Shown here one piece after another: positions 7,000 to 15,884 of a stretch of 20,731 nt of DNA. Numbering within the stretch: position 1 is the stretch's first letter; each line of letters opens with the position of its first letter. The position numbers and the translations under genes were made by a program. The notes beneath the pieces were generated by a model, which did no database searches, was not told where the DNA came from, and saw nothing but the letters and a program-made list of their open reading frames with translations. This stretch comes from a virus: IMG/VR virus record IMGVR_UViG_3300030104_003287, positions 1 through 20,731 of that record; one strand, 5' to 3'.

Positions 7000-8085
7000 A
7001 TGAGAAATATTAAAGACGAATCTTTAAAAATAAGTAAAAATAAAAAAAATAACACACGACCAAAAACTAAAAGTTTTGGCTACCAAATATTAGGAATGGG
7101 TGGCGGTACAGTTGTACCTCCATTTACTTTTGATTATTTAGTTGTAGCTGGCGGCGGTGGCGGAGGACGTTCTGGACTTAGTGGAGGCGGCGGTGGAGCC
7201 GGAGCTGGAGGTTATAGAGCTTCTGGTTATGGACCTGCACCTCTTAGAGGATCTTCTATAGGACCAGGAAAAAATTGCGGTACTTATCCAATTGTAGTTG
7301 GAGGAGGTGGCGCAGGTGGTAGCCCTCCATCAAAAACTGGTACAGATGGTGTTAATTCAAGTTTTGCAGCCCCTTCCCCTTTTGGAATAACTTCTGAAGG
7401 TGGCGGCGGTGGCGGTGGTGGTACACCATCAAAAAATTGCGGTCAACCCGGAGGATCTGGTGGTGGTGGAGCTGGTGGTGGTACACCTGCCCCTACATGT
7501 CCAATTGGACCAACATCAGGTGGAGAAGGAAATAATCCTCCTGTAACTCCTCCACAAGGAAATGATGGTGCAGCTCAAAGTTTAACACCTCATGCTGACC
7601 AACCCGGCGCAGCTGGCGGTGGTGGTATGGGTGCTGCTGGACAATCAAATCCTGGACCACAAAGAAATGCCGGTGGAAATGGTGGAAACGGTGTACCAAA
7701 CAATATTAATAATTCTTGTACTACTTACGCTGGCGGCGGCGGTGGTGGAGGATCACACAACGCAGGTGGATGCGGTGGACCCGAAGGTGGATGCGGCGGA
7801 TCTGGCGGCGGCGGTGGCGGCGGCGGAACCGGACCAAACACAGGTGGACCAGGAGTAGCTGGTGGTACTAACACTGGCGGCGGTGGCGGCGGTGGCGGAA
7901 GTAAACCTGGAAGCTATAGTCCAAGCGCAGCGGATGGTGGAAACGGTGGACCAGGTATTGTAATAATTAGAGCACCTGCAGATAAAACTTTAACAGTAAC
8001 ACCTGGAACAAATACTACATCTACTCACCCAGCAGGTTGTAAGTTAGCTACTTTTACAGTTACTGGTTGTTTAACTATTTCATAA
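7000..8085 (+). CDS. Glycine-rich tail adhesin with Pro and Cys
   Basis: 361 aa. A basic N-terminal tail (residues 1-25) is followed by FDYLVVAGGGGGG (44-56), the usual opening of phage Gly-rich adhesin domains. About 260 residues of poly-Gly stretches follow, then the closing GGNGGPGIVIIRAP (313-326) and a small C-terminal beta domain. T4-type gp38 adhesins use similar stretches to build polyglycine-II helical bundles that hold receptor loops; homology here is not shown. I count 35 prolines, many next to Gly, and eight cysteines (93, 147, 167, 240, 258, 265, 347, 357), which is unusual for such a protein. TAGGAG precedes the ATG. The gene is directly followed by the oxygenase cluster, making it an attractive substrate candidate. 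GC rises locally because of GGN codons. Confidence 0.7.
   Translation: MRNIKDESLKISKNKKNNTRPKTKSFGYQILGMGGGTVVPPFTFDYLVVAGGGGGGRSGLSGGGGGAGAGGYRASGYGPAPLRGSSIGPGKNCGTYPIVVGGGGAGGSPPSKTGTDGVNSSFAAPSPFGITSEGGGGGGGGTPSKNCGQPGGSGGGGAGGGTPAPTCPIGPTSGGEGNNPPVTPPQGNDGAAQSLTPHADQPGAAGGGGMGAAGQSNPGPQRNAGGNGGNGVPNNINNSCTTYAGGGGGGGSHNAGGCGGPEGGCGGSGGGGGGGGTGPNTGGPGVAGGTNTGGGGGGGGSKPGSYSPSAADGGNGGPGIVIIRAPADKTLTVTPGTNTTSTHPAGCKLATFTVTGCLTIS
7732..7899 (+). repeat. GGN trinucleotide low-complexity runs
   Basis: Runs of GGC/GGT/GGA codons at about 7732-7751, 7804-7827 and 7876-7899 form near-perfect trinucleotide tracts in a gene otherwise using mixed codons. They encode poly-Gly and are the most GC-rich DNA in the window. 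Such tracts can change length by slippage in multiples of three without breaking the frame. Confidence 0.7.
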
Positions 8086-8124: not shown

Positions 8125-8145
8125 CATATGTATAAAGACATATGA
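8125..8145 (+). promoter_or_regulatory. Mini-ORF and palindrome at the oxygenase operon start
   Basis: Two CATATG palindromes (8125-8130 and 8139-8144) can pair as a 6-bp hairpin with the loop TATAAAGA. The first contains an ATG that opens a five-codon ORF (MYKDI) whose TGA at 8143-8145 overlaps the ATG at 8142 of the first oxygenase as ATGA. No Shine-Dalgarno precedes the oxygenase start. Leader-peptide re-initiation or structure-gated initiation is possible; chance is not excluded. Confidence 0.35.
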
Positions 8146-8765
8146 ATCTTACAAATTATTATTGGTATTTTAAATCAGCAGTTCCTAAACGTATATGTGA
8201 TGATATTGTGCGTTACGGAAAATCTTTACAAGATAGAATGGCTACAACGGGTGGTTTTGGAGATACAAAAAAATTAAATAAAAAACAAATTAAAGATTTA
8301 AAATCAAAAAGAGATTCAGATATTGTTTGGATGAATGATAGGTGGATATATAAAGAAATTCAACCCTATGTTCATCAAGCAAATTTAAACGCAGGATGGA
8401 ATTTTCAATGGGATTATTCTGAATCTTGTCAATTTACAAAATATAATAAAAACCAATATTATGATTGGCATTGTGATAGTTGGGATCAACCTTATCAAGA
8501 GGGAGCAACAAAAGGTAAAATAAGAAAACTATCTGTAACAGTTTCTTTATCAGAGGGGGGTAAAGACTATACAGGTGGTGAATTAGAATTTGATTTTAGA
8601 AACCAAGATCCTGATAAAAAACGCAATATACGTAAATGTAAAGAAATTTTACCTAAAGGATCTCTGGTAGTGTTTCCTGGATTTGTTTGGCATAGAGTAT
8701 GCCCTGTTAAAAAAGGATCAAGATATAGTTTAGTAGTATGGAATTTAGGAGCGCCTTATAAATAA
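8142..8765 (+). CDS. 2OG-Fe(II) oxygenase 1, prolyl-4-hydroxylase-like
   Basis: 207 aa with the full facial triad of 2-oxoglutarate/Fe(II) dioxygenases: H110-C-D112 in QYYDWHCDSWD, distal H184 in VVFPGFVWHRVCPV, and the 2OG-binding R194 ten residues later in GSRYSLVVWNLG. The segment RKLSVTVSLSEGGKDYTGGE lies between, as in PKHD/P4Hc-type hydroxylases. Such enzymes couple 2OG decarboxylation to hydroxylation of protein side chains or small molecules; the substrate cannot be read here. The start at 8142 gives MNLTNYYWYF, the normal beginning, but has no clear ribosome binding site. The gene opens a four-oxygenase operon and shares a TAATG overlap with the second. The triad indicates an active enzyme. 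Confidence 0.88.
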   Translation: MNLTNYYWYFKSAVPKRICDDIVRYGKSLQDRMATTGGFGDTKKLNKKQIKDLKSKRDSDIVWMNDRWIYKEIQPYVHQANLNAGWNFQWDYSESCQFTKYNKNQYYDWHCDSWDQPYQEGATKGKIRKLSVTVSLSEGGKDYTGGELEFDFRNQDPDKKRNIRKCKEILPKGSLVVFPGFVWHRVCPVKKGSRYSLVVWNLGAPYK

Positions 8766-9421
8766 TGACTTTTCCAAAACAGTTATTTTTAGAAGAACAT
8801 TTTAAATGTCCTATGTGGTTTGCACACGAACCTAAATTTGTAAAAAAATTAAATAAAGCATCAGACAAATACATTAAACAAGCTAAAAAAAATTTAAAAA
8901 AAAGCATAGATAAAAGAAATAAAGAATACGGAAATAAAGGAGATATGGGACATGTTTTTCATTCTACTCCTTTAATAGACCCTAATTTTAAAGAACTACG
9001 AGACTATGTTTCGGCAACATCATATAACCTTTTAGATGAAATGGGTTTTGATTTAAGAAATTATAAAATGTTTGTATCTGAAATGTGGGTACAAGAATTT
9101 GCTAAAGATGGTGGTGGTCACCACACTTTACATACACATTGGAATGGACACATATCTGGTTTTTATTTTTTAAAAGCAAGTGATGCAACGTCTAGACCTA
9201 TATTTCAAGATCCACGTCCAGGAAATATGATGAATCTTTTACCTGAAAAAGACGTTAATAAAATAACTTATGCAAGTAATCAAATTAACTATAGTGTTAA
9301 ACCTGGAACAATGATGTTCTTTCCATCTTTTATGCCCCATATGTATTCTGTAGATATGGGATATGAACCTTTTAGGTTTATACATTGGAACATACAAGCA
9401 TTACCAAAACAAAATGTTTAA
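8765..9421 (+). CDS. 2OG-Fe(II) oxygenase 2 (TIGR02466/PF13759-like)
   Basis: 218 aa. The core reads SEMWVQEFAKDGGGHHTLHT then HWNGHISGFYFLKA (residues 105-138), FQDPRPGNMM and finally KPGTMMFFPSFMPHMYSV with FRFIHWNIQ. This follows the TIGR02466-type layout (W.n....G..h..H.H....lSGvYYl ... FPSwlpH ... R.si.fN). The metal-binding pair is probably H123-T-H125 (HxH in place of HxD), with H192 distal and R204 for 2OG; assignment is by motif comparison. The N-terminal 60 residues are Lys-rich and helical (KKLNKASDKYIKQAKKNLKK). Translation is coupled to the first oxygenase through TAATG, and the last eight bases overlap the third. Substrate unknown. Confidence 0.8.
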   Translation: MTFPKQLFLEEHFKCPMWFAHEPKFVKKLNKASDKYIKQAKKNLKKSIDKRNKEYGNKGDMGHVFHSTPLIDPNFKELRDYVSATSYNLLDEMGFDLRNYKMFVSEMWVQEFAKDGGGHHTLHTHWNGHISGFYFLKASDATSRPIFQDPRPGNMMNLLPEKDVNKITYASNQINYSVKPGTMMFFPSFMPHMYSVDMGYEPFRFIHWNIQALPKQNV

Positions 9422-9893
9422 AACAATTGATAATTATTTATCTGTAGATGATCATCTTATTTTAAAAAATTTAATGGAGTCTCAATCTTTTCCTTGGTTT
9501 TTTCAAAGTGGTTGTGTTACAGAAAAAAGTAAATTGTTTGATTATCAATTTGTACATATATTTTATGGAAACTATAGTTCTAACTCTAATTATTTTAATA
9601 ACATTAATCCTTTAATTACAAAATTAAAACCTAATGCTTTAATTAGAATAAAAGCTAATTTAAATCCTATAAGTAATAAGATGGTTAAATATGAAGAACA
9701 CGTAGATCAAACTTTTAAATGTAAGGTGGCTTTATATTATATAAATGATAATAATGGTTATACAATGATAGGTGATAAAAAAGTTGAAAGTAAAAGTAAT
9801 AGAATGGTTTTATTTAATTCAAATCAAAAACATTATGGAACTAATTCTACAAATTTTAATAATAGAATAGTAATAAACTTTAATTATTTTTAA
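9414..9893 (+). CDS. 2OG-Fe(II) oxygenase 3, short form
   Basis: 159 aa from the ATG at 9414 (MFKTIDNYLSVDDH). A longer in-frame ATG at 9363 would overlap the upstream gene by 59 bases and add 17 residues that break the family-like start, so I reject it. The active site is H96-V-D98 in YEEHVDQTFKCKVALYYIN, distal H140 in NSNQKHYGT, and R151 in NNRIVINFNYF, complete for iron and 2OG. FPWFF near residue 26 is also typical of this group in marine phages. The gene overlaps the second oxygenase by 8 bases. Its DNA is among the most AT-rich here: two 60-base lines I counted (9421 and 9661) have 11 and 14 G/C bases. Substrate unknown. Confidence 0.85.
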   Translation: MFKTIDNYLSVDDHLILKNLMESQSFPWFFQSGCVTEKSKLFDYQFVHIFYGNYSSNSNYFNNINPLITKLKPNALIRIKANLNPISNKMVKYEEHVDQTFKCKVALYYINDNNGYTMIGDKKVESKSNRMVLFNSNQKHYGTNSTNFNNRIVINFNYF

Positions 9894-9903
9894 GGAGGAA
9901 AAC

Positions 9904-10533
9904 ATGTCATTTAAAAAAAATAAATATTCAATATTAAAAGGAGCGATAGGTAAAGAGTTAGCAAATTTTGCTTATGTTTACTTTTTAAACAAAAGGAAAG
10001 TTGCTAGAGTTTTATTTGATTATAAATATATTTCTCCTTTTACAGAATATTTTGGAGTATGGAATGATCACCAAGTCCCTAACACGTACTCTCACTATGG
10101 AGATTTAGTAATGGAAACTTTATTACAAAGAGTAAAACCTGCAATGGAAAAACATACTAAATTAAAATTAAGTGAAACTTATTCTTATGCAAGGATTTAT
10201 AAAAAAGGGGATGTTCTTCATAGACATAAAGATAGGTACTCATGTGAGATATCTACTACATTAAATTTAGGTGGAGATTCTTGGCCTATCTATTTAGACC
10301 CTACAGGAAAAGAAGGTCAAGCTGGCATTAGAGTTGATCTTGATCCTGGAGATATGCTTATATATTCAGGATGTGATTTGGAACATTGGAGAGAAGAATT
10401 TACCGGAGATAATTGTGGTCAAGTTTTTCTTCATTATAATAAAGCAGGAACAAAAAATGCTAAAGAAAATCAGTTTGATAAACGTCCTTTTTTAGGACTA
10501 CCTACTTTTTTTAAAGGGTTTAAAATTAAATAA
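9904..10533 (+). CDS. 2OG-Fe(II) oxygenase 4, phage-type
   Basis: 209 aa. YSYARIYKKGDVLHRHKDRY provides H108-K-D110, followed by SCEISTTLNLGGDSWPIYLD. Distal H161 lies in DPGDMLIYSGCDLEHWREEF, and the final strand is GQVFLHYN. The iron triad is complete. The basic 2OG-anchoring residue usually found 10-12 positions after the distal His is not in its normal place: Q173 stands there, and R163 or K180 might substitute. I recall the same QVFLHY strand in other marine phage copies, so it may be a family trait. AAGGAGG eight bases before the ATG is the strongest ribosome binding site in the cluster. The gene begins ten bases after the third oxygenase. Substrate unknown. Confidence 0.82.
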   Translation: MSFKKNKYSILKGAIGKELANFAYVYFLNKRKVARVLFDYKYISPFTEYFGVWNDHQVPNTYSHYGDLVMETLLQRVKPAMEKHTKLKLSETYSYARIYKKGDVLHRHKDRYSCEISTTLNLGGDSWPIYLDPTGKEGQAGIRVDLDPGDMLIYSGCDLEHWREEFTGDNCGQVFLHYNKAGTKNAKENQFDKRPFLGLPTFFKGFKIK

Positions 10534-10582: not shown

Positions 10583-11068
10583 ATGGCACACTTTGCAGAA
10601 TTAGAATCAAAAACAGATCCAACAGGATTTACATCAGATACACACTTAGTTGTCAAAAGAGTCATTGTTGTTGGAAATGATATAGAGACAGCCGCTGGTC
10701 CTTTAGGTGAAAATGACATGCATGTTGATGGTGAAACATGGTGCTCTACTAAATTAGGTGGTGTTTGGAAACAAACTTCTTACAGCAATAGTTTTAGAAA
10801 ACAATATGCTGGTATAGGACATGTGTATGATTCGTCAAAAGATAAATTTATTGATCCACAACCCTATGCATCATGGATATTGAATGCTGATGATAATTGG
10901 GAAGTGCCTGTAGCAACACCATCTGCTGGTACAGGAAGCACAGGAAAAGAGATACTTCCACACTGGGACGAAGATAACGTAAGATGGATAGGAACATCAG
11001 TAATAGATGACGATACTGTAGAAAATTTTGTTTGGAATCCTTCAACCTCAGCTTGGGAAGCTGCATAA
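10583..11068 (+). CDS. Conserved phage protein, MAHFAEL family, function unknown
   Basis: 161 aa. The opening MAHFAELESKTDPTGFTSD, the stretch VVKRVIVVGND, and later WKQTSYSNSFRKQYAGIGHV, FIDPQPYASWILNADDNWEV match a conserved protein frequent in cyanophage and other marine phage structural regions. I know of no demonstrated function. Relative to the form I remember there is extra sequence after MAHFAEL (residues 8-22) and a C-terminal extension with two further Trp-containing motifs (RWIGTSVIDDDTV and FVWNPSTSAWEAA). TAGGAG precedes the ATG. It lies between the oxygenases and the nozzle gene. A fibre-accessory or chaperone role is possible but inferred only from this neighbourhood. Confidence 0.65.
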   Translation: MAHFAELESKTDPTGFTSDTHLVVKRVIVVGNDIETAAGPLGENDMHVDGETWCSTKLGGVWKQTSYSNSFRKQYAGIGHVYDSSKDKFIDPQPYASWILNADDNWEVPVATPSAGTGSTGKEILPHWDEDNVRWIGTSVIDDDTVENFVWNPSTSAWEAA

Positions 11069-11117
11069 ACTTATATCAGTTTACACTTTTATCGAACTAT
11101 AATATAACAGAAGACCT

Positions 11118-13325
11118 ATGCTACAAAAGATAGGATTTTTACCTGGATTTAATAAACAAATTACTCCTACAGGAGCAGAAGCTCAATGGACAGAAGGAGA
11201 AAATGTTCGTTTTAGATATGGCACACCTGAAAAAGTAGGTGGTTGGAAATCATTAGGAGATAAAAAACTAACAGGTCCAACACGTGCTATTCATCATATG
11301 GTGAATAAAGAAGGTATTAAATATGCTGTTTTAGGCACCAATAGAATTTTATATGTTTATTCTGGAGGAGTTTATTATGATATTCATCCTCTAACTAATC
11401 CATCAGGCACGGCTATTACAAATGCATTCAGTACCACTAATGGTGATGCAACCGTTACTTTAACTTTTTCATCAGCACATAACTTTGTAGCAGGAGACAT
11501 TATTCTATTTGGAGATTCCTCTACATTTAGTGCTATTACTAATTCAAATTTTGGCGCATCTGATTTTTGTGATAAAAAATTTATGGTTACTTCTGTACCC
11601 ACTACAACTACACTTACAATTGAAGCAGAATCTACAGAATCAGGATCGGGTGCTAGCGAATCAGGCGGAATTACTTATTATAGATATTACCATGTGGGTC
11701 CAGCTGAACAGGTTGGAGTATATGGTTTTGGTATATCTCAATGGGGTGGTACAGTTACTAACCCTCAAACTAATACTTTAGATGGAGCTTTAGGAGACGA
11801 TGCTTATGGAACTGGTGGATCAGGAACAAGTATTGTTTTAGACTCTGTTACAGGATTTCCAACTACAGGTACAAACTATATTCAAGTTGGCACAGAAGAA
11901 ATTTCTTATACTGGAGTTTCTGGAAGCACAACTTTAACTGGAATTACAAGAGCAGTTAGAGGAACAACTAGAGCTGCTCACTCTGATGGTGCAACAGTCA
12001 CTAATACCAGTGATTATGCGGCTTGGGGTCAAGCAGCAGCATCAACTGATAAAGTTGCTGAACCCGGTTTATGGTCATTAGATAATTTAGGAAGTACTTT
12101 AGTTGCATTAATAGTTAATGGATCCGTATTTGAATGGGATGCAGATGCATCCAATGCTACCGCAACACGAGCAACCATTGTTTCAGGAGCACCAACTGCA
12201 TCTAGAGATATGATTGTGTCAACACCTGATCGTCACTTAGTTTTATTTGGAACAGAAACAACTATTGGTGATACCGATACACAAGATGATATGTTTATAA
12301 GATTCTCGTCTCAAGAAACATTAAGTACTTGGACACCAACAGCAACCAATACCGCTGGTACGCAAAGACTGGCTGCCGGATCACGGATCATGGGAGCTAG
12401 ACTTGGTAGAAATACAATATACGTATGGACAGATACCTCATTATTTACCATGCGTTTTGTAGGTCAACCTTTTACCTTTGCGTTTGAACAAGTAGGAACT
12501 AACTGTGGTTTGATTGGAAAAAATGCAGCTGTTGAAGTTGATGGTGCTGCTTACTGGATGTCTGAAAATGGCTTCTTTAGATTTACTGGTAAACTAGAAT
12601 CTTTAGATTGTTTAGTTGAAGACTATGTTTATGATGATTTAAATAAAACTTCTAATCAAATGATTTATTGTGGATTAAATAACTTGTTTGGTGAAGTAAT
12701 GTGGTTTTATCCAACATCTGATTCAAATGTAAACAATAGATGTGTATTTTATAGTTATTTAGATTCTACAATTAACAGACCTATTTGGTATACAAACGCT
12801 AATTCTTTATGGCCACGAACAGCGTGGATTGATTCAGCTATCTTTGGTTTACCACATGCAACATATTATGATGCTGATACTGATACATCTTTTGATGTAA
12901 AAGGTAATACTGATGGTGTTACATATTACTATGAACATGAGACAGGAGTTAATCAAATTAAAATTGGAACAACAGCTGCCATTCCAGCTAATATTACTTC
13001 AGGAGATTTTGATATTACTCAAGATCAAAGACAAGGAATTACTTTTAGAGGAGATGGAGAATTTGTAATGAGAGTTAGTAGGTTTTTACCTGACTTTATA
13101 ACTCAAGCTGGTAATACAATTGTTACATTAAACCTTAGAAATTTTCCAAATGACACAGCCGCTAGTTCAACATTAGGACCATTTACTATTACATCTTCTA
13201 CTCAATATCAATCTTGTAGAGCTAGAGGCAGAGCTGTTGCAGTTAAGATAGCAAATACAGCTGTAGATTCTAATTGGAAATTAGGCACTTTTAGGTTAGA
13301 TGTACATTCAGGAGGAAGACGTTAA
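11118..13325 (+). CDS. Tail nozzle / P22 gp10-like DNA stabilisation protein
   Basis: 735 aa. The N-terminus KIGFLPGFNKQITPTGAEAQ then WTEGENVRFRYGTPEKVGGWK is the signature of the family related to P22 gp10 (packaged DNA stabilisation) and functionally comparable to T7 tail tubular protein B, which closes the tail tube. IKYAVLGTNRILYVYSGG is the first beta-propeller-like blade. Two inserts interrupt the core. One is residues about 100-172 (AHNFVAGDIILFGD ... KFMVTSVPTTTTLTIEA), resembling phage FCCH-type beta domains. The other is 236-297 (VTGFPTTGTNYIQVGTEEIS, YTG, LTGITRAVRGTTRAAHSDGA), shared with the protein at 2296. The core resumes with PGLWSLDNLGSTLVALIVNG. The ribosome binding site is weak. 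The stop overlaps the next ATG (TAATG). Confidence 0.8.
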   Translation: MLQKIGFLPGFNKQITPTGAEAQWTEGENVRFRYGTPEKVGGWKSLGDKKLTGPTRAIHHMVNKEGIKYAVLGTNRILYVYSGGVYYDIHPLTNPSGTAITNAFSTTNGDATVTLTFSSAHNFVAGDIILFGDSSTFSAITNSNFGASDFCDKKFMVTSVPTTTTLTIEAESTESGSGASESGGITYYRYYHVGPAEQVGVYGFGISQWGGTVTNPQTNTLDGALGDDAYGTGGSGTSIVLDSVTGFPTTGTNYIQVGTEEISYTGVSGSTTLTGITRAVRGTTRAAHSDGATVTNTSDYAAWGQAAASTDKVAEPGLWSLDNLGSTLVALIVNGSVFEWDADASNATATRATIVSGAPTASRDMIVSTPDRHLVLFGTETTIGDTDTQDDMFIRFSSQETLSTWTPTATNTAGTQRLAAGSRIMGARLGRNTIYVWTDTSLFTMRFVGQPFTFAFEQVGTNCGLIGKNAAVEVDGAAYWMSENGFFRFTGKLESLDCLVEDYVYDDLNKTSNQMIYCGLNNLFGEVMWFYPTSDSNVNNRCVFYSYLDSTINRPIWYTNANSLWPRTAWIDSAIFGLPHATYYDADTDTSFDVKGNTDGVTYYYEHETGVNQIKIGTTAAIPANITSGDFDITQDQRQGITFRGDGEFVMRVSRFLPDFITQAGNTIVTLNLRNFPNDTAASSTLGPFTITSSTQYQSCRARGRAVAVKIANTAVDSNWKLGTFRLDVHSGGRR

Positions 13326-14163: not shown

Positions 14164-14510
14164 TGGCAGTAGTAAATCAATATAAATTTTATGGAGTAGA
14201 TAATGACACAAGTGGAGCTGCACTTACTATGTTTGGTACAACAGGTAGTGTTCAAAATCCTTTAGCCACTGAGACATATATAATTAAATCTATTAAAGTA
14301 ACATCTGCTACAACACCTACAGTCACAGTATTAAACAACTCAATAACAGCCATTAAATCAGCAGCGTTAACAGCTGATACTACTACTGAATTATTAACAG
14401 TTCCAATGGTAGTAGAAGGAGGTACTACTTTGACAGTTCAGTCAAGTAATACAGGGTCGTTTGATGTAGCTATTAGCTACCTAAACATTAAGAAGGAGAT
14501 AACAACATAA
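14163..14510 (+). CDS. Small beta-rich structural protein
   Basis: 115 aa, opening MAVVNQYKFYGVDNDTSGAA and then alternating Thr/Val/Ser-rich strands: TYIIKSIKVTSATTPTVTVL, ELLTVPMVVEGGTTLTVQSS, FDVAISYLNIK. The pattern (N.YKfYG... then IIKSI.Vt...) resembles small marine phage virion proteins, likely a beta sandwich that decorates tail or capsid. That role is inferred. The gene is coupled to both neighbours by TAATG overlaps (14161-14165 and 14508-14512). AAGGAG near its own 3' end (14491-14496) serves the next gene. No catalytic or metal site is visible. Confidence 0.6.
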   Translation: MAVVNQYKFYGVDNDTSGAALTMFGTTGSVQNPLATETYIIKSIKVTSATTPTVTVLNNSITAIKSAALTADTTTELLTVPMVVEGGTTLTVQSSNTGSFDVAISYLNIKKEITT

Positions 14511-14710
14511 TGAAAACAACAATAGTAAATGGTAAAGAGATACCAGTTGTAACACCTGCAAAGGTGACAACAACCATTAAAAACAAGCACAGTGGAGTAA
14601 TTTATAAAACGGAGGAAGATTGGAAGGCTCAGGGAATTCCCGAATCAGACATTAGAAGAGATGTACATGTTTTGATGCCAAACCTTGATCTTTTTTCAAA
14701 AACAAAGTAA
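14510..14710 (+). CDS. Small conserved phage protein, NKHSG motif
   Basis: 66 aa with the central motif TTTIKNKHSGVIYKTEEDWK followed by RRDVHVLMPNLDLFSKTK. Short proteins with 'vkNKHsG..Y.seee... RDV.v.mP.LdlF.Kt' occur in many marine phage genomes near structural genes; I know of no assigned function. It has no membrane segment or cysteine. AAGGAG lies 14 bases before the ATG, inside the upstream gene, and the TAATG overlap couples the two. The small size, charged composition and position suggest an assembly or regulatory partner of its structural neighbours, but that is speculation. Confidence 0.6.
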   Translation: MKTTIVNGKEIPVVTPAKVTTTIKNKHSGVIYKTEEDWKAQGIPESDIRRDVHVLMPNLDLFSKTK

Positions 14711-14741
14711 TATAATAAACCGATTAAAATTAGGCAAAAAT

Positions 14742-15884
14742 ATGGCAATAACAGACATACAAATTTCAGAAGAATTACAGACAGGCGCACCTTCAATTAA
14801 ATATAGAGGAAACGAAGGACCCAAAGCACCTATGGAAATGGCAATGTCTGACCCTATGTTAATAAAAGAGTATGAAAAGTATGTTGATACTATGAAAGAA
14901 CAAGGACAAGAGCCAGTTTCTTTTGAACAATTTGTTCAAGAAATTATGTCAGGTATGGCTAAAGGTGGAAGAGCTGGATATGGATTAGGAAGTTTAGTTA
15001 GATCAATTACAAGACCATTTAAAAAAGCAGCTAAAAGTGATTTAGGCAAAGCTGCATTAACTGCGGCTGCGGCTTATGGATTACATAACTTTGGTCTTCC
15101 TGGAACTAAAGGATTTGGAACTCCTGATGGAGGATTTGGAGCAGGTTTTTTTTCTAAAGCTAAACCATTTTTATTTGGATCACCTGCTACCAGAACTGCA
15201 GGATATAATATGCCGGGTATGGGAGTATACACTCCATCAACACAAGGAATTTTAGGTAAATTGGGTTTAACAAAAGGTGCAGGGTCTATGATGCCAACAT
15301 CAATTGGGGGATTAGCGGCAGCAACAGCACTTCCATTTACAGGAATAGGAATGGGTGACGAAGAAACTATTGATTTTGATTTAAAAAATATTCCTGACAG
15401 TCAAAAATTTGCTTCTGATTATTCACAAATGAGAAAAGATATTGGTGATGCAATTGCTTCAGGAGTTAAAGAAAATTTTACAGAAGTATTAAATAAATAC
15501 AATTTAACAGAAGGTGTTAATATTAATTTTTGGGAAGACATAAGAAAACCTTCAGCTCAAGGTGGAAGAATTGGTAAAGCCGAAGGTGGGATAATGGACC
15601 TTGGTGGTATGGAAAAAGATTATAGAAACACTGGTGGCTTTGTAGACTTAGGAGCTAAAGAAAAAGCTGATGATGTACCAGCAAGATTAAGTGTAAATGA
15701 GTTTGTATTTACTGCAGATGCTGTTAGAAATGCAGGTGGTGGAGATATAGATCAGGGAGCAAAAGTTATGGAGAACATGATGAAACATTTAGAAGCTGGT
15801 GGACAAGTATCAGAAGAGTCACAAGGAATGCAAGGGGCTAGAGATATGTTTGCAACATCACAAAGATTAAGCGAGGTAGTATGA
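14742..15884 (+). CDS. Virion-associated protein with 'ADDVPARLSVNEFVFTADAV' domain
   Basis: 380 aa from the ATG at 14742 (MAITDIQISEELQTGAPSIK). The longer reading from 14685 overlaps the upstream gene and adds an atypical 19-residue start, so I did not use it. Residues about 298-354 (GGFVDLGAKEKADDVPARLS, then VNEFVFTADAVRNAGGGDID, KVMENMMKHLEAGG) form a conserved domain common in uncultured marine phage genomes, function unknown. Before it lie MAKGGRAGYGLG (72-83), Ala/Gly-rich hydrophobic segments (104-118, 185-205) and QGGRIGKAEGGIMDLGG (273-289). The stop shares ATGA with the next gene. Position before ejection-type genes suggests an internal virion protein; unproven. Confidence 0.6.
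   Translation: MAITDIQISEELQTGAPSIKYRGNEGPKAPMEMAMSDPMLIKEYEKYVDTMKEQGQEPVSFEQFVQEIMSGMAKGGRAGYGLGSLVRSITRPFKKAAKSDLGKAALTAAAAYGLHNFGLPGTKGFGTPDGGFGAGFFSKAKPFLFGSPATRTAGYNMPGMGVYTPSTQGILGKLGLTKGAGSMMPTSIGGLAAATALPFTGIGMGDEETIDFDLKNIPDSQKFASDYSQMRKDIGDAIASGVKENFTEVLNKYNLTEGVNINFWEDIRKPSAQGGRIGKAEGGIMDLGGMEKDYRNTGGFVDLGAKEKADDVPARLSVNEFVFTADAVRNAGGGDIDQGAKVMENMMKHLEAGGQVSEESQGMQGARDMFATSQRLSEVV

Follow-up and report, generated by a model that had tools for sequence, protein, structure and literature searches.

A variable island of predicted 2-oxoglutarate oxygenases is exchanged together with a putative tail adhesin in marine phages and may tailor tail proteins

Few auxiliary genes in ocean viruses are as numerous as those for 2-oxoglutarate (2OG) oxygenases, which are usually discussed as host-metabolism genes. 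In cyanophages, 2OG oxygenases, a 'ferrochelatase domain' gene, denV, prnA and a carbamoyltransferase have been listed as separate genes, with a role in 2OG signalling or DNA repair suggested (PMC3037559). In HTVC023P-type pelagiphages, 2OG oxygenases have been reported beside a 'ferrochelatase' (PMC9599517; Wittmers 2022). The families phrog_61 and phrog_2954 are enriched in seasonal viruses (PMC11561400), phrog_61 is structurally similar to human EGLN3 (PMC12774648), and the halogenase VirX1 has been described in a paper whose available portion gives no natural substrate (PMC8407142). In this study, we analyze a window of 20,731 bases, i.e., the whole stretch of DNA under analysis, out of the 35,906-base IMG/VR virus record IMGVR_UViG_3300030104_003287. 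Four adjacent oxygenase-like genes, G1 to G4 (8142-10533, plus strand), lie here downstream of a putative tail adhesin gene. We propose, with a probability of about one half, that they form a variable island which travels with receptor-binding tail genes and would serve the late-expressed tailoring of tail adhesin proteins.

On the plus strand, the island lies between a Gly-rich putative tail adhesin (7000-8085; 361 amino acids, 33% Gly, 35 Pro; phrog_2295), which is also a candidate substrate, and the virion structural protein DS2 (11118-13325), which forms the fixed downstream border. The Gly-rich protein scores 29.7 bits against PF21722 (Gly_rich_2, cut-off 24.3) and has no sequence match in the PDB. 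An earlier note, made from this DNA alone, had placed the oxygenases between an adhesin and the nozzle gene. The Gly-rich protein and the flanking tail or structural genes bear this out, but the 'nozzle' matches only phrog_3287 'virion structural protein' (E=2e-94). Comparison with relatives reveals a recombination edge at 11117-11118, with the backbone conserved downstream and adhesin and island exchanged upstream. In the related locus L266, the identity to the window amounts to 98.5% from 11117 on; the island is 77-80% identical, G3 is absent and the Gly-rich gene cannot be aligned. L265 is almost the same as the window; in all other loci whose DS2 is at least 82% identical, no more than 10% of the adhesin can be aligned, although the gene upstream of it often aligns.

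Island content also covaries with adhesin similarity when DS2 is controlled for (partial r 0.32, n=126 loci, 0/500 permutations). A subset of 32 loci, sampled independently of the island, gives a partial r of 0.26 (11/500), which rises to 0.32 (1/500) when adhesin length is controlled for. The correlation of island content with DS2, as part of the virion backbone, is about -0.1, and that with U1, which flanks the adhesin on its other side, is not positive either. Related viruses exchange the enzyme set jointly with the adhesin, a pattern suggesting that they modify their own tail proteins chemically.

The slot upstream of DS2 is almost always occupied by oxygenase genes. An unseeded control anchored on DS2 covered 55 close relatives whose upstream sequence spans 3.2 kb or more; 54 of them have at least one of the four oxygenase families upstream of DS2, in very different combinations. 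Among 73 further open reading frames (ORFs) in the slot, PF13759 is found in 44 and PF13640 in 36 (one protein may match both). The remaining cargo includes a carbamoyltransferase (PF16861), a free sulfotransferase and a Trp halogenase (PF04820, E 6e-109), and one slot protein (L283:5438-6796) is a sulfotransferase fused to an Asp/Asn beta-hydroxylase domain, a fusion that suggests hydroxylate-then-sulfate chemistry. Hydroxyls are among the acceptors that carbamoyl and sulfo transfer require, which makes the cargo chemically coherent. The island is a fixed site by the tail adhesin with a variable oxygenase content.

In the window itself, ORFs and junctions agree with the four consecutive same-strand genes described earlier. 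G1 (8142-8765) and G2 (8765-9421) overlap by 1 bp, G2 and G3 (9414-9893) by 8 bp, and a 10-bp gap with a Shine-Dalgarno-like AAGGAGG (9892-9898, plus strand) precedes G4 (9904-10533). G3 is read from the ATG at 9414, the longest ORF of that frame beginning at 9363. The count of promoters within the block does not exceed that in shuffled sequences. The four genes belong to four different PHROGs (phrog_61, phrog_81, phrog_274 and phrog_2954, respectively); they are therefore not recent tandem duplicates, in agreement with the earlier note.

The arrangement of these genes was followed in four scans of viral contigs, each yielding at least 600 candidate stretches of which 80 loci were kept. As the scans were seeded on G1-G4 themselves, their counts show arrangement and not prevalence. 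Among the matches listed, 232 non-redundant loci contain 164 blocks spanning G1 to G4. G1-G2-G4 is the most frequent arrangement (86); partial blocks and G1-G2-G3-G4 (12) come next, and the Gly-rich gene stands immediately upstream in 80-90 of 150 cassettes. Gaps between block genes are mostly negative, i.e., the genes overlap, and the order G1-G2-G4 is fixed in dozens of contigs. E.g., HTVC033P and HTVC023P carry G1-G2-G4, 023Pt_psg01 carries G3-G1-G2-G4, HTVC008M and Mosig encode five to six oxygenases, with G1 and G4 among them, and S-RSM4 has a long oxygenase run with G1 and G3. Hence the multi-oxygenase module in the tail operon holds and its synteny is strong, where scattered homologues would have spoken against it, but four genes are not the unit. 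G3 is missing from most G1-G2-G4 blocks and from L266, which rules out an obligate four-gene unit. All four families do co-occur, less commonly than the three; G1-G2-G4 is the recurrent core and G3 one of many optional members.

All four proteins are oxygenase-like, with Fe/2OG activity predicted from sequence and models. The active-site residues named in the earlier note stand at their positions in all four proteins, G2 deviating from the usual metal motif. Profile searches, which that note had proposed, place G1 and G2 above the Pfam cut-offs, G3 below, and give no Pfam match for G4. G1 reaches 61 bits against PF13640 (cut-off 27) and combines the HxD...H triad with the 2OG-binding Arg; H110, D112, H184 and R194 are each kept in 104/104 non-redundant relatives, and its profile matches the PKHD-type hydroxylases PiuC and Sbal_3634 (E about 1e-8). 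G2 scores 49 bits against PF13759 (2OG-Fe(II)_Oxy_5; cut-off 27). Most of the 2OG-Fe(II) superfamily carries H-x-D/E at the metal motif, whereas G2 has HxH...H with R204, so that the usual carboxylate ligand is absent from that position. H123, H125 and H192 are kept in 95/95 non-redundant relatives and R204 in 92/95, and the solved relatives 3bvc and 2rg4 (PDB) have H-x-H as well.

G3 and G4 belong to families that carry other names, phrog_274 being labelled 'DNA endonuclease V' and phrog_2954 'ferrochelatase'. G3 itself scores 24 bits against PF13640, under the cut-off of 27; 51 of 60 relatives match this family, and none of the 60 matches the endonuclease V (pyrimidine-dimer glycosylase) family. 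None of 56 G4 relatives matches the ferrochelatase family (E 0.1), and PDB sequence searches with the G3 and G4 profiles gave nothing significant. AlphaFold models, built using relatives from viral contigs, have a pLDDT (predicted local distance difference test score) of 95.6 for G3 and 94.8 for G4. The G3 model consists mainly of strands, and its first Foldseek matches in the PDB are the HIF prolyl hydroxylase PHD2 and related prolyl hydroxylases; G4 is first matched by the Pseudomonas putida prolyl-4-hydroxylase (4iw3, in complex with EF-Tu, and 4j25). VIA-align gives Z scores of 16-17 for both models across most of the chain: 16.6 for G3 with PHD2, and 16-17 for G4 with P4H, SnoN and PiuC, PHD2 being also among the matches. 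By this fold similarity, both may be prolyl hydroxylases. The Fe/2OG residues are invariant or nearly so in non-redundant relatives of G3 (H96 and D98 in 93/93, H140 in 92/93, R151 in 90/93) and of G4 (H108, D110 and H161 plus R97 and R163 in 90/90). The double-stranded beta-helix, on whose presence in the doubtful members the earlier note had made its proposal depend, is thus seen in both models together with HxD...H, and in G3 also with the Arg. A T4-type DNA endonuclease V is ruled out for G3 by the PF13640 matches and a strand-rich rather than all-helical model, a ferrochelatase for G4 by the absent family match and the predicted oxygenase fold. Because of these Pfam results and predicted folds, both PHROG labels are very probably wrong. 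In addition, DUF6445 (PF20043) proteins occur in oxygenase islands (L343:16930-17538, L376:9045-9695) with a weak PF13640 overlap, and DUF6445 may be another 2OG oxygenase family.

A G4 relative with 47% identity is encoded by the cyanobacterium Brasilonema CT11 (L378:5959-6627), between nonribosomal peptide synthetase (NRPS) and polyketide synthase (PKS) genes and adjoining a luciferase-like monooxygenase. It is most simply read there as an amino-acid or peptide hydroxylase, and a neighborhood of enzymes that build and tailor peptides would count for peptide or protein tailoring by the family. Other G4 matches in genome contigs mostly resemble phage contigs within metagenome bins. In the metagenome-assembled genome (MAG) 'Maricaulis sp. 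IN14', this phage family occurs on eight or more short contigs (L362, L365-L367, L371, L374, L375, L377), which are probably phage contigs binned into it. Another G4 relative, in a 1.09-Mb Rhodospirillales MAG contig (L379:5821-6597), lies between yebC and an ABC transporter, near ruvA, and is apparently chromosomal rather than phage-borne.

Similar islands are found in other phages. In cyanophage Syn10, the VirX1 gene, whose product was confirmed to be that of PDB 6qgm, precedes a run of ten ORFs, the last of which belongs to the G4 family. Eight of these have some oxygenase- or JmjC-type match, five above a curated cut-off, one of the five being a JmjC_2 protein of the ribosomal-oxygenase type. 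The order in Sf-CH11 is tail gene, two 2OG genes, halogenase, 2OG gene, 'ferrochelatase', LamG protein and neck. Across this whole genome, 12 of the 15 genes of these classes have a tail gene no more than five genes away, versus 68 of 189 non-tail genes (P=3e-4; 0/224 rotations). S-RIM44 and S-SSM5 carry similar blocks, that of S-SSM5 with a carbamoyltransferase. The S-RIM44 halogenase island (L345) also encodes unassigned proteins of phrog_7084, phrog_1644 ('minor coat protein') and phrog_8014 (11165-11869, 12463-13224 and 14396-15118, respectively), which are candidates for more tailoring enzymes.

We infer from these data a function in which enzymes and adhesin would be translated from the same late tail operon, and each enzyme would bind Fe(II) and 2-oxoglutarate. 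The available portion of the HTVC027P transcriptome paper names one 2OG gene, without an expression class. Before or during virion assembly, the enzymes would hydroxylate particular residues, such as Pro, Asn/Asp or Lys, in the Gly-rich adhesin, in DS1 or in both. The second candidate substrate, DS1, is a short conserved tail-module protein (MAHFAEL...; 10583-11068, plus strand; phrog_7759). DS1 is present in the slot in 30 of 44 relatives, and a DS1 relative stands next to G4 in S-SSM5. In relatives with a carbamoyltransferase, sulfotransferase or halogenase, the new hydroxyls could be capped further, or aromatic residues halogenated. Such decoration would stabilize the fiber or shift receptor specificity, and enzyme set and adhesin would for that reason be exchanged together. 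A protein is the presumed substrate because the predicted folds resemble those of protein hydroxylases, a JmjC_2 protein and an Asp/Asn hydroxylase are among the partners, the halogenase is directed at aromatic residues, and island content covaries with the adhesin. Among the three substrates offered in the earlier note, linkage and enzyme types thus favor a virion protein, and a host surface molecule or nucleotide less so.

Several observations weigh against this proposal. When U1 is also controlled for, the covariation drops to r 0.12 (43/500, n=35). Since the island lies right beside the adhesin, their transfer as linked DNA could by itself yield covariation, and physical linkage accounts for some part of it. 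The name 'adhesin' rests on family and position, and some islands have no Gly-rich adhesin immediately upstream. DS1 also turns up close to tail genes where oxygenases are absent, in Bellamy, CRP-207, HTVC025P and Melnitz, which weakens it as an oxygenase-specific partner. Three of the 15 Sf-CH11 genes lie away from tail genes, so that some enzymes of this kind stand outside tail islands, and in L376 a related oxygenase is found next to uvsW instead of tail genes.

The enzymes could instead modify a host surface molecule such as lipopolysaccharide (LPS), lipid A or exopolysaccharide, e.g., to block superinfection or to aid release. Nod factors and glycans are substrates of carbamoyl- and sulfotransferases, and LpxO-type lipid A hydroxylases belong to PF05118. 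In line with this, some islands encode sulfotransferases and a carbamoyltransferase annotated as Nol-like, and S-CAM1 has sugar-metabolism genes near its carbamoyltransferase. We nevertheless consider such a target unlikely, since Trp halogenases require an aromatic target, G1, G3 and G4 are closer to protein or peptide hydroxylases than to lipid A enzymes, expression from a late tail operon would come late for altering the host surface, and the island covaries with the adhesin.

An action on free small molecules, whether by drawing down 2OG to steer nitrogen stress signalling, in iron or heme metabolism, or on a secreted metabolite, likewise appears improbable to us. It would follow the 2OG/NtcA model (PMC3037559) and the reading of the 'ferrochelatase' pairing as iron/heme metabolism (PMC9599517). 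In pelagiphage Mosig, heme oxygenase and PcyA-like genes lie beside the oxygenase run (L006:11832-13068), which would suit this explanation too. On the other hand, the 'ferrochelatase' is itself an oxygenase by predicted fold, burning 2OG needs no multitude of distinct families per genome, the islands adjoin tail genes, and a complete pathway is not visible.

The site might also be a mere permissive recombination hotspot by the adhesin, with the oxygenases as unrelated morons that hitch-hike on adhesin exchange. The sharp recombination edge, the varying content and order, and an adjacency that could by itself produce part of the covariation would all be expected in that case. Yet the cargo consists almost always of oxygenases or chemically matching transferases and not of mixed morons, the order G1-G2-G4 is conserved, and unrelated myoviruses have similar islands by tail genes, and we consider a mere hotspot unlikely. 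Hydroxylation of DNA or nucleotides, for hypermodification or repair, is very improbable: although 2OG oxygenases are able to act on nucleobases and DNA repair was proposed for cyanophage members (PMC3037559), there is no TET/JBP family match, the G4 profile reaching a Tet-like dioxygenase at E=0.5 only, the block lacks a glycosyltransferase or other DNA-modification gene, and its location is the tail operon.

If tailoring of tail proteins is the function, phages enzymatically modify their receptor-binding proteins, and adhesin sequence alone would not suffice to read host range. More tentatively, marine phages would possess swappable, natural-product-like tailoring sets, made up of hydroxylases, halogenases, carbamoyltransferases and sulfotransferases, that decorate their own receptor-binding proteins and add chemical diversity to host recognition beyond the amino-acid sequence; the phage tail might then be the natural substrate of VirX1 and of many orphan cyanophage 2OG oxygenases. 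The joining of oxygenases, halogenases and carbamoyltransferases in one adhesin-linked island offers a concrete place to seek substrates. Two widespread phage families, named 'ferrochelatase' and 'DNA endonuclease V', move into the 2OG oxygenase class, and published ecological conclusions built on phrog_2954 as an iron/heme metabolism gene would have to be revised. The four oxygenases had initially been put forward as an undescribed system; 2OG oxygenases beside a 'ferrochelatase' were already reported in pelagiphages, whereas the literature searched held no description of a tailoring island linked to an adhesin. The same search returned no paper proposing tail-protein modification by these enzymes and none on phage tail hydroxylation. 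The finding is broader than the first description, comprising a variable adhesin-linked island, with a function in tailoring that is proposed here, and two re-assigned families.

Several known systems share elements with this island. The P. putida prolyl-4-hydroxylase acting on EF-Tu (4IW3/4J25) and PHD2 resemble G3 and G4 in predicted fold and metal-ligand pattern, but the identity is just about 10-20%. The PKHD-type hydroxylases (PiuC; PF13640) are matched in sequence by the G1 profile; unlike them, G1 shows no genomic link to siderophore uptake. Tailoring oxygenases of NRPS/PKS pathways are comparable through the G4 relative (47%) in the Brasilonema CT11 cluster, whereas the phage islands contain no NRPS or PKS and the candidate target would be a ribosomal protein product. 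The flavin-dependent halogenase VirX1 of cyanophage Syn10 (PDB 6QGM) stands in the same kind of island with a G4-family gene at its end; related halogenases occur in relatives of the window, but the window itself has none. The HTVC023P-type pelagiphages (PMC9599517) have the same gene families in co-location. There, the oxygenases were described as 'not adjacent' auxiliary metabolic genes and their partner was read as a true ferrochelatase, whereas here the partner is a prolyl-hydroxylase-like oxygenase by model and the set a contiguous island that is exchanged with the adhesin.

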